Assembly (NCBI RefSeq): GCF_030651995.1
Contig: NZ_JAUSBN010000035.1
Coordinates: forward strand, 62,001 to 126,000
Direction of reading: 5' to 3'
DNA from: Reyranella sp.
GTDB lineage: Bacteria > Pseudomonadota > Alphaproteobacteria > Reyranellales > Reyranellaceae
DNA: 64,000 nucleotides
Shown: positions 658-4,079 of the stretch, one piece after another
Position numbering within the stretch: position 1 is the stretch's first letter
Layout: every line of letters begins with the position of its first letter
The notes under the pieces: generated by a model
Seen by the model: the letters and a program-made list of their open reading frames with translations, nothing else
Told to the model about the DNA's origin: nothing
Databases searched by the model: none
Translations under genes and position numbers: made by a program

Positions 658-1629
658 TCAGAGCTTACGCATCACCATCTGCGAGCCGCCGCCCCAGATC
701 GGCAGATAGGCCATCTTGTAGCCGGCGCCGCCGGTCACGATCGGATGGATCGCCTCCGGGGAGGCGGCGACGTCCTTGCCCTGGTCGAACAGGTATTGCT
801 GGACGCGCCTGATGTCCCAACCCTCGTGCCGCGCGATCTTCTCGGCCAGTTCGAGCGGCAGGAGAAGGACCTGTTCGCCGCGCCCGCTCTTTCGGCTCTG
901 GCCCGACATCGCGATCTCGGCCTGCATGCCGGCAACGACCGGGTCGAGGATCGCCGCGGGCGTGGCGCCTTCTCCATCGCCGGGCAGCACCTCGGCGGTG
1001 CCTGAAATGCCCATCACCGTGAGGGCGCTCTCGTCTTTGCTGAGGCCGTGGCGTTCGGTGAAGGTGGGGAAGGGACCGTCGTTCCTCTCGGCGAAGCACA
1101 GCGTGTACTTGGCGGGCTGGCCCATCGTCGCCATGTCGCCCGTGTCCGATCTGGCGCCGCCGATGTTGCGCAGGCAGAGCTGCAGGGCGCGGCCGATGCA
1201 GGCGTTGGCGCGGGTGCCGGGACCGATCGTGTTGGTCAGCGCGTTGACGCCCAGCGTGCGGACAATCGGGCCGTGGAGGCAGAGCGCGACCGCGGCACTG
1301 CCGGTGGTCGTGGCGATGCCGAGGAGATTGAAGTCCGGTTCGAGCATGGCCTGCGCCGCCGCCAGGACGACGGGCAGTTCGGCCGGCAGGCAGCCCGCGA
1401 TCACGCACTGGTAGGCGACGGACTCGGGCGTGATGTCGCCGAACATCGGCGGCATCATTCCGAGGGAGTCCGCCCGCCCGGCGATACCGGCGATCATGGC
1501 GTCGAGCCGCCTCTGCGTGGGCGGGACCAGCGGGAGGCCGTCCGAGAGTTCGGCCTCCGCCAGGATCTGCTGTGCGTTCTCCCAGGCCGTCGATTCGTCG
1601 ACGACCGGCCAGCCGCACCACTCGTTCAC
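658..1629 (-). CDS. Conserved protein of unknown function, UGSC-selenoprotein-operon paralog 1 (~323 aa)
   Basis: Homologous by eye to the adjacent 1640..2677 product (SDGxPLxxPT, AGCxPExxPVVxAA, NLxGxATT, GPI...N..TN..G.G..ANA.IGRALxLxLxN.GGA, G.PAKxTxCF.E). GTG start at 1629 chosen because the upstream extension overlaps the previous gene. Confidence 0.8.
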   Translation of the reverse strand: MNEWCGWPVVDESTAWENAQQILAEAELSDGLPLVPPTQRRLDAMIAGIAGRADSLGMMPPMFGDITPESVAYQCVIAGCLPAELPVVLAAAQAMLEPDFNLLGIATTTGSAAVALCLHGPIVRTLGVNALTNTIGPGTRANACIGRALQLCLRNIGGARSDTGDMATMGQPAKYTLCFAERNDGPFPTFTERHGLSKDESALTVMGISGTAEVLPGDGEGATPAAILDPVVAGMQAEIAMSGQSRKSGRGEQVLLLPLELAEKIARHEGWDIRRVQQYLFDQGKDVAASPEAIHPIVTGGAGYKMAYLPIWGGGSQMVMRKL

Positions 1630-1639
1630 GACGGGTCGC

Positions 1640-2677
1640 TCATCGGGCGATGCGCGTGCAGGCGACGGTGGTGCCGCCGAACGACGGGATGAACGCCGAA
1701 TGCTTGCCCGCACCGCCCGCCACCGTGATGTGGATGTCCTTCGGATCGCGGCCGATCGACAGCCAGTCACCGTCCGGCTTGTGGCCGGTGGTCTCGTACG
1801 TCACGAGGTTTTCCTTCGAGACGCGCGAGAGATGGACTCGCGAGCGCTTCCACAGCTCCTCGCGGATGCTGTCGATCGTGAAACCGTCGCGCTTCAGGGT
1901 CGCGGCATGCTCGGGACCGATGATGACGAACATCGGGCCCTTGCCGTAGATCGTGTTGGAGCCCGGGTTGGACATGCCGCCCGCGAAGGTGGTCAGCAGC
2001 CCGTCGCCGGTGGTCGAACCATGGTCGTTGAGGTTATGCGGGCCTTCGCCCGACATCACCGTCACGACCGAGTCGGTCGGCGCGAAGCCGCGCTGCACAT
2101 GATAGGGCGCCCAGGGATTCTCCTCCTCGTTCTCGCCGAAGCAGAAGGTGAACTTGGCGGGATTGCCCTGGGTCGAGCGGTCCATTTCGCCCGGCTTGGC
2201 GCCGGCGACGTTCAGCAGCATCAGCCCGAGCGCGCGGCCAATCGTGGCATTGGCCTGGCGACCCTGGCCGAAGCAGTTGGTGCCGCAGTTGATGTTGAGC
2301 TCGTGCCGGATCGGGCCGCTCACCATGACCATCGGCGCACAGGAGTGCGTCGTCGCGAGCGTACCGTGGAGATTGTACTCCGGGTCGAGCACGCCGCGCA
2401 GGGCGGCGGTCACGACCGGGAAGTATTCGGGCTTGCAGCCGGCCATGACGGCATTTGCCGCCAGTGCCTGCAGCGTCGGAACGACCTGGCGCGGCGGCAC
2501 CGGCGGGTAGGGGCGGTTGTCGCCGCGCACGGTCTCGACGAACTTCGCCACTTTCGCCTCGGTGGGCACGAACAGCGGCATGCCGTCGCTCCAGCCCTGT
2601 TCGTTGGCGTACTCGTTGAAGGCCTCGACATCCATGTCGCCGATGTCGATCACTTCCTGTTCGGCGATGTCCTTCAT
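1640..2677 (-). CDS. Conserved protein of unknown function, UGSC-selenoprotein-operon paralog 2 (345 aa)
   Basis: Long ORF; ATG overlaps the stop of the selenoprotein CDS (ATGA at 2674-2677); paralogous to 658..1629; Cys-rich segment NCGTNCFGQGRQANATIGRAL. Confidence 0.85.
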   Translation of the reverse strand: MKDIAEQEVIDIGDMDVEAFNEYANEQGWSDGMPLFVPTEAKVAKFVETVRGDNRPYPPVPPRQVVPTLQALAANAVMAGCKPEYFPVVTAALRGVLDPEYNLHGTLATTHSCAPMVMVSGPIRHELNINCGTNCFGQGRQANATIGRALGLMLLNVAGAKPGEMDRSTQGNPAKFTFCFGENEEENPWAPYHVQRGFAPTDSVVTVMSGEGPHNLNDHGSTTGDGLLTTFAGGMSNPGSNTIYGKGPMFVIIGPEHAATLKRDGFTIDSIREELWKRSRVHLSRVSKENLVTYETTGHKPDGDWLSIGRDPKDIHITVAGGAGKHSAFIPSFGGTTVACTRIAR

Positions 2678-3192
2678 TTGCCTGTGGCCTCGGTCAGTCC
2701 CTTGGTCGCTGCTTCTATACGTTCCCGCAGCTCTTCGGCGTTGAGGCCGCCGACGGGATGCTTGACCACGATCATGCGCGCCTCGACCTTGCGGGCTTTC
2801 GCCTGCGCCAGGACCAGCGGTTTGAAAGTCTCAGTGGCGATCACGAAAGCGGTGATGCCGAGCTTCTCGAGTTCGAGGCTGTCGTGGAAACTCCACGATG
2901 AACAGCTTCCTCAATCCCCTAAGGCTAGTAGCGCTGCCTTGTAGTTCTTCGCGACCTTCTCGATCAGTTCCTTCGGCGCCGGCTGGCTGGCGCTGTTCTT
3001 GGCATGGAAGTGGATATTGTCGACCGGCCGGTGCGCGCCCAGCATGGCGCGGACGCCTTCCAGCAGCTCGCGGGCATTCGGCTTCGAGTTGGATATCAGG
3101 GCGATGGCGTCCGTCGCCCAGTTGACGGGCTGCAAGGTCACCTTGGCAGGACCGGCGGCGGCCATGCCGAAGCTCGGATTGAAGATGCGCAT
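2674..3192 (-). CDS. UGSC-motif selenoprotein; in-frame TGA (2911..2913) read as selenocysteine at residue 94 of 172
   Basis: ORF MRIFNPSFGM...NYKAALLALGD, then TGA, then GSCSSWSFHDSLELEKLGITAFVIATETFKPLVLAQAKARKVEARMIVVKHPVGGLNAEELRERIEAATKGLTEATGK*, in frame with no other stop; SD GGAGGG upstream of the ATG; SECIS-like hairpin immediately 3' of the TGA; matches the known UGSC (seleno)protein family core GDUGSC(T/S)SWS.HD..ELEK.G. Confidence 0.93.
2878..2906 (-). promoter_or_regulatory. Putative bacterial SECIS element for the UGSC selenoprotein
   Basis: RNA after UGA: GGAA-GCUGU-UCAU-CGUGG-AGUUU-CCACG-ACAGC. Lower 5-bp and upper 5-bp stems with a one-sided bulge and a 5-nt apical loop holding GU; loop G is at +20 after UGA. 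Confidence 0.85.
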
Positions 3193-3209: not shown

Positions 3210-4079
3210 CTACTTGTTCAACGCCGCGACAATCGACTTGGCGACGCGCTGGCCGTCCGCGATGGCGTTGGCCAGGTATTCCTTGGAGCCGGACCGAACG
3301 TCGCCGGCGGCGAACACCAGCGACTGGGCGGTCTGGCCCGCCTCGTCCACAACGATATGCCCCGTGGCGTCGCGTGCAAGCGAATCCGGCAGGAATTCCG
3401 CAGCGGGAGACCGGCCCTCGTAAACGAACACCGCATTTGTCGGAATGCGGTCTCGCTGACCGTCGTTTTCGACCGTGACCGCCTCAAGCCCATTGCTGCC
3501 TTCGAGGCCGACGATGCGCCCCGGCCGGGCGGTGACGCCTTCCGGTACCGGGCCGGTCGGCGTGCCGAGCATGGTGATCTCGCCGGCGATGCCCACGAGG
3601 ACGGCGGCCTCGTACGGCGCCCAGCCGGTGGCGCCGGCGATGATCACCGGCTGGCCGGCATAGAGCGGGCCATCGCAGTTCGCGCAGTGGGACAGGCCCC
3701 GCCCTTCATATTCTTCCTCGCCGGGAAGGCCGAGCTTGCCCTTGCTCATGCCGGTCGCAACCACGAGGGATCGCGCCGTATGGCGCTCGCCGTCGGCGGT
3801 CTCGATCTCGAAGGGCCCATTGCCGGAAATCGCTGTGACTTCGCCGAAGCCGATCTCGACGCCAGCGACGACGGCATCGTCGGTCAGGCGCGCGGCCATG
3901 GTCGTGCCGTCGAAGATCTCCTCGAAATCGTGCAACTGGCCCAGGTTGATGATCTCGCCGCCGGGCGCAAGCTTGTCGAGGCAGAGCGCCTTCAGGCCCG
4001 CGCGGGCGACTTCGGTGGCGGCGGTGAGGCCGGCCGGGCCGGCGCCGATGACGATCACGTCGTAGGAAGGGGTGTCCAT
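3210..4079 (-). CDS. Thioredoxin-reductase-like FAD-dependent oxidoreductase
   Basis: YDVIVIGAGPAGLTAATEVARAGLKALCLDK (FAD GxGxxG), redox pair SHCANCDGPLYAGQ, C-terminal FAAGDVR; start at MDTPSYDV. Confidence 0.88.
   Translation of the reverse strand: MDTPSYDVIVIGAGPAGLTAATEVARAGLKALCLDKLAPGGEIINLGQLHDFEEIFDGTTMAARLTDDAVVAGVEIGFGEVTAISGNGPFEIETADGERHTARSLVVATGMSKGKLGLPGEEEYEGRGLSHCANCDGPLYAGQPVIIAGATGWAPYEAAVLVGIAGEITMLGTPTGPVPEGVTARPGRIVGLEGSNGLEAVTVENDGQRDRIPTNAVFVYEGRSPAAEFLPDSLARDATGHIVVDEAGQTAQSLVFAAGDVRSGSKEYLANAIADGQRVAKSIVAALNK

Follow-up and report, generated by a model that had tools for sequence, protein, structure and literature searches.

Results

On the minus strand of the window, by which we mean the whole 64,000-nucleotide stretch of Reyranella DNA analysed herein, a gene of 172 codons assigned to the UGSC selenoprotein family is located at 2674..3192. 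The frame is opened by an ATG at 3192, and the first 93 codons are followed by a TGA at 2913..2911 (codon 94, predicted to be decoded as selenocysteine, Sec94, within GDUGSCSSWSFHD), by 78 further stop-free codons and by a terminal TGA at 2676..2674. The original prediction that the ORF at 2911..3192 (minus) continues past its TGA thus agrees with the sequence in coordinates, frame and residues. The terminal TGA overlaps the start codon (ATG, 2677..2675) of the following gene, which encodes a 345-aa partner of UGSC (1640..2677, minus) from an unnamed family of approximately 340 aa; "DUFX" is our own name for this family, and the partner is referred to as DUFX1. A second paralogue, DUFX2, is found at 658..1629 (minus) and aligns with DUFX1 at 31% identity; its mechanical ORF begins at 1770, and translation more likely starts at a GTG near 1629. 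A gene for a flavoprotein resembling thioredoxin reductase (TrxR-like), with the FAD motif GxGxxG and a redox CxxC (HCANCD), precedes the UGSC start by 17 nt and occupies 3210..4079 (minus), where the longest ORF reaches 4304 and the start at 4079 is proposed. The flavoprotein is a candidate electron donor of the system.

The window gene is a new member of the known UGSC family. The Pfam model PF24696 (UGSC) matched residues 2-167 of the 172-residue readthrough product (E = 7.6e-38; 130.8 bits, cut-off 25) and covered both flanks of the in-frame TGA, consistent with the full-length product with Sec94 that had been predicted. The score against the NCBIfam UGSC model NF041046 was 121.1 bits, just below the curated cut-off of 125, and automatic annotation could therefore well overlook this gene. 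Within the motif GDUGSC, U and C alternate at the first position of UGSC among relatives. The same genome contains two additional UGSC genes, both interrupted by a single in-frame TGA, and the codons after the TGA of the window gene showed dN/dS values of 0.07-0.22 against six relatives, with the length unchanged over the 78 codons; thus, chance does not account for the UGSC reading. The original prediction regarded the family as known and its biochemical role as not established, in line with its discovery in metagenomic surveys (PMC2398784) and with a review of 2026 in which its role is still uncharacterised (PMC13188914). A PrdB/GrdB-like selenoprotein gene with an in-frame TGA (PVUPACTRAVG; C77:50403-50930, L203) was also observed in the same genome, which therefore carries at least four selenoprotein genes.

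Several lines of evidence concern the decoding of the TGA. In the genome (5.5 Mb, 99.5% complete), SelA (565 bits), SelB (465 bits) and a tRNA-Sec with the anticodon UCA adjoin on contig C34, and SelD (297 bits) is encoded on contig C80, so that selA, selB, selC and selD, which the original prediction had proposed to search for, are all present. Among 289 alphaproteobacterial genomes, 73 UGSC matches were obtained in 28 genomes, and exactly one in-frame TGA was observed in 72 of these matches; in the relatives examined, this TGA was always the U of UGSC. Homologues ending at the TGA had been named as evidence against readthrough; those found extend beyond it with a conserved GSC region, and the homologues without Sec carry Cys at this position, as had been suggested. 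Cys replaces Sec in six stop-free relatives, from Natronomonas, Natrialba, Sphingomonas, Binatia, Mycobacterium gordonae and one alphaproteobacterium, and no tRNA-Sec was detected in the Natronomonas, Natrialba and Sphingomonas genomes, in which the best matches were tRNA-Ser. In M. gordonae (L214, L189), a tRNA-Sec is retained, though the UGSC copy beside DUFX is a Cys form. In Blastococcus, TAG occupies the Sec site (L120:7450-7956, L215) and a tRNA-Sec with the anticodon CUA is present, consistent with a previous report of UAG-Sec UGSC proteins in this group (PMC5330540). This tRNA is labelled as tRNA-Pyl by ARAGORN. Variant motifs without the second Cys (UGTS and UGSS, that is, UxxS instead of UxxC) were also observed at L148:7410-7943 and L172:7354-7866, where the loop of the SECIS element is altered as well.

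A putative bacterial SECIS element, identified by RNA folding and covariation, forms an apical hairpin with AGU in the loop at 2882..2898 (minus). The hairpin starts 13 nt past the TGA and corresponds to codons +5 to +10 after it, and a lower stem (GCUGU/ACAGC) lengthens it to 2878..2906; both features of the bSECIS criterion, a hairpin after the UGA and a G close to the beginning of its apical loop, were found. Codons +6 and +8 are paired through their third bases in 138 of 140 Sec genes, with switches between G-C and C-G. In genes with Val or Leu at codon +8, where the third base is free to vary synonymously, it was complementary in 84/84 cases with codon +6 ending in G or C, that is, C in 39/39 genes after G and G in 45/45 genes after C. 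At loop codon +7, Ser is encoded by AGT in 108 of 109 genes and Cys by TGT in 23 of 23, and the other Ser codons near the hairpin are mostly TCG. In the six Cys forms, AGT or TGT at codon +7 was observed in 0/6 and the stem was kept in 1/6. The folding energy of the window hairpin did not differ significantly from that of dinucleotide shuffles (z = -1.47), and synonymous randomisation of the hairpin across genes gave a weak signal (mean z = -0.99, median z = -0.96). The informative tests of the SECIS element are covariation and codon choice, not folding energy.

The machinery, the conservation of the family, the exchange of Sec for Cys or TAG, the purifying selection and the SECIS element support the reading of the TGA as Sec, and on these sequence-based grounds the gene almost certainly encodes a selenoprotein with Sec at codon 94. 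The standard code alone favours instead the 93-aa ORF as the true product, the remainder being untranslated or decaying; however, the purifying selection downstream, the conservation through the TGA, the SECIS covariation and the Sec machinery leave this reading a negligible probability. Similarly, it is scarcely credible that the TGA is a Cys or Trp codon altered by a sequencing error or by misassembly, since an identical TGA is present in close relatives that were assembled independently (L094, L113, L114) and an in-frame TGA is also found in both UGSC paralogues of this genome.

DUFX was matched by no entry in Pfam or NCBIfam and by no PDB chain in sequence searches, and annotated plasmid records give UGSC its name but list DUFX as "hypothetical protein". 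A DUFX gene was located on the same strand within 400 nt of UGSC, or fused to it, in 141 of 146 UGSC genes gathered by two routes, and several of the five without such a neighbour lie at or near contig ends. Conversely, when 85,000 species genomes were queried with DUFX, UGSC was observed alongside in nearly all of the best 80 loci, the few loci lacking it being partly at contig ends. DUFX and UGSC also occurred in the identical 28 of 289 alphaproteobacterial genomes, although these genomes are related and the agreement does not translate into a simple probability. Conserved DUFX peptides served to select the 80 loci, and all 289 genomes belong to one class, so the pairing statistics apply best to those sets. 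The pairwise distances of UGSC and DUFX were correlated (r = 0.83), whereas the maximum in 500 shuffles was 0.05. Approximately 33 pairs, roughly a quarter of those collected, are fused in one frame, the fusion call being uncertain for Cys-form or stop-ambiguous cases. As judged by these comparisons, the UGSC-DUFX pair is obligate, co-evolving and often fused. The two proteins very probably constitute a functional unit and would form a physical complex.

In these fusions, L137, L150, L152, L155, L165 and L175 among them, the standard ORF begins only past the TGA, and annotation therefore splits or truncates UGSC-DUFX genes; the corresponding database entries are probably N-terminally truncated and begin with GSCTSW. 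A fusion of UGSC with "Unknown_1" was shown in a figure in 2008 (PMC2398784), and Unknown_1 may be DUFX.

Within DUFX, Asp31 (176/176), Cys81 (169/176) and Cys179 (159/176) are near-invariant, and Arg148 and Glu182 are also conserved. The structure predicted by AlphaFold (pLDDT 95) had no confident relative in a Foldseek search; weak matches to fumarase and to cyclic-amide (cyanuric-acid) hydrolases were obtained (E = 0.008, TM 0.2), and neither fold is claimed for DUFX in view of the weak matches and low TM. Profile comparison indicated that DUFX is unrelated to UGSC, and no DUFX match was obtained among Pfam, PDB and PrdB-like profiles.

The flavoprotein matched Pyr_redox_2 in Pfam (E = 5e-27), and its closest similarity in NCBIfam was to TRX_reduct (TIGR01292). 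It shares the FAD fold and the CxxC with thioredoxin reductase, but its score of 175 bits is below the cut-off of 343 and the canonical NADPH motif is missing, so we regard it as a relative and not as a canonical thioredoxin reductase. The CxxC is retained in 19 of 19 aligned relatives, and the NADPH motif of the flavoproteins of the window subtype is degenerate (GATGWA), a combination reminiscent of reductases fed by another donor. Genes in the order TrxR-UGSC-DUFX1-DUFX2, or in a permuted order, recur in the SSWSFHD subtype in several alphaproteobacteria and in Blastococcus. Outside the window subtype, no dedicated TrxR-like gene was found in most loci within the stretch examined; DUFX proteins of another subtype possess an additional N-terminal domain, marked by CPTC and by a VPT signature of the cis-Pro type, and a profile of this domain matched thioredoxins in the PDB (E = 2e-5). 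UGSC and the TrxR-like protein were unrelated in profile comparison.

The AlphaFold model of UGSC, obtained with 60 aligned sequences, is an alternating beta-alpha, Rossmann-like structure (pLDDT 93). Its best Foldseek matches in the PDB were flavodoxin-like, TIR, lumazine synthase and GTPase folds, which are generically Rossmann-like, and no thioredoxin was present among the 50 best; a PDB sequence search with the UGSC profile also returned no relative. A likely Trx-like fold was stated for UGSC in 2008 (PMC2398784), and this assignment has been dropped herein in favour of the predicted Rossmann-like fold. In hhalign comparisons with PrdB/GrdB-like selenoproteins of the same class, UGSC matched with probabilities of 91% and 84% on two alignments, with Sec aligned on Sec. 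Sequence programs take U as C, which slightly favours such matches; as a control, UxxC was masked, and 78-80% remained, while 30 column shuffles reached at most 5.6%. The GrdB family PF07355 was not matched directly by 28 UGSC members at E up to 10, and no GrdB or PrdB structure was found among the best Foldseek matches, so the homology is confined to a segment of approximately 80 columns. UGSC is thus probably a distant relative of GrdB and PrdB, on the basis of these profiles, and is not filed as a member of either family.

The neighbours of the Reyranella locus include amidase and ABC importer genes. Three loci of the window subtype (L106, L107, L121) lie beside genes for DMFA2_C (N,N-dimethylformamidase large-subunit-like) and Abhydrolase_10 (alpha/beta hydrolase) proteins, and CoA transferase and CoA lyase genes were observed beside haloarchaeal UGSC-DUFX genes. 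Clustering of the neighbourhoods in search of a substrate returned general catabolic genes only.

Discussion

Herein, we propose that UGSC and DUFX together form a two-part reductase of small molecules that is fed by thioredoxin and in which UGSC provides the Sec; we assign this reading a probability of roughly 0.6. In the proposed mechanism, SelB and tRNA-Sec(UCA) would decode UGA codon 94 as Sec with the aid of the hairpin just downstream. UGSC would then be the small Sec-bearing subunit and DUFX the other subunit, and a small organic substrate might be placed between them in a site contributed by DUFX. The selenolate of Sec94 would attack the substrate and drive a reductive cleavage, by analogy with the GrdB and PrdB reductases, and Cys97 would resolve Sec94, producing a Sec-Cys selenosulfide. 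This selenosulfide could be re-reduced by the upstream CxxC flavoprotein and, elsewhere, by a thioredoxin domain or thioredoxin.

The analogy draws on characterised enzymes. Substrate binding is a function of GrdB, whose UxxC-type motif participates in reductive deamination; D-proline reductase has PrdB as its Sec subunit (PMC13188914). PrdB and GrdB resemble UGSC as UxxC selenoprotein subunits with an adjoining gene for a partner subunit and a thioredoxin-type electron supply, and the profile match of UGSC to them extends over approximately 80 columns, in which the Sec positions coincide. In contrast, UGSC has no direct match to PF07355 and appears to occur mainly in haloarchaea and in bacteria from soil and marine habitats, not in Stickland fermenters. 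With the UGSC family as defined (PF24696, NF041046), the window protein shares the full-length match, the UGSC motif, the TGA for Sec and the SECIS element downstream; however, the published view is that of a stand-alone protein, functionally uncharacterised and with a likely Trx-like fold, whereas the present results favour UGSC as one component of a UGSC-DUFX module over a redox protein acting alone.

Two other functions might be considered. As a general thioredoxin-like thiol oxidoreductase or antioxidant with DUFX as an incidental neighbour, UGSC would be expected to carry a UxxC motif and to associate with TrxR-like or thioredoxin domains, and the likely Trx-like fold in the earlier report (PMC2398784) would also fit; however, the AlphaFold model is Rossmann-like (pLDDT 93), the Foldseek matches contain no thioredoxin, and an obligate pairing with DUFX is unexpected for a general antioxidant, so we consider this function quite improbable. 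Somewhat less improbable, but still unlikely, is that Sec acts as a nucleophile in a non-reductive reaction (hydrolysis, lyase or group transfer), with DUFX holding the substrate and the reductases serving only to maintain the selenol in its reduced state. The neighbouring genes are indeed catabolic (CoA transferases, enoyl-CoA hydratase, amidases, DMFA2-like, CoA lyase) and not respiratory, the conserved Asp31, Cys81, Cys179, Arg148 and Glu182 of DUFX could form an active site, and the weak Foldseek likeness to fumarase and cyclic-amide hydrolases points in the same direction. Nevertheless, the marked preference for Sec over Cys and the dedicated electron-transfer partners fit redox turnover better, and reductase chemistry of the UGSC-DUFX pair appears fairly probable.

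At even odds, we further suggest that UGSC and DUFX together represent an undescribed class of selenium-dependent two-subunit reductases in many bacteria and haloarchaea. Its Sec domain would be distant kin of proline and glycine reductases, its paralogues would act on different substrates, it would be fed by a dedicated CxxC flavoprotein or a fused thioredoxin, and the ATGA overlap would couple DUFX1 to Sec readthrough. If this is true, the supply of selenium would set the synthesis of DUFX1. In the openly accessible literature, no description was found of the obligate DUFX partner, the TrxR-like operon or the Rossmann-like model. Beyond the original prediction, the neighbouring genes appear to belong to the same system as UGSC, and the results suggest a testable model of a selenium-dependent reductase with two parts. 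For functional study, the analysis supplies an obligate partner gene named by no family library searched, an operon with a candidate electron donor of its own, a probable connection to the chemistry of proline/glycine reductase, and clean natural Cys and UAG variants of UGSC.

With respect to the substrate, the neighbours of the UGSC-DUFX genes point to the catabolism of imported organic compounds, naming none. The amidase and ABC importer genes of the Reyranella locus weakly hint at an imported amide or amino compound, and the DMFA2_C and Abhydrolase_10 neighbours are a possible clue. Several differently placed UGSC copies occur per genome, which suggests that the copies act on different substrates.
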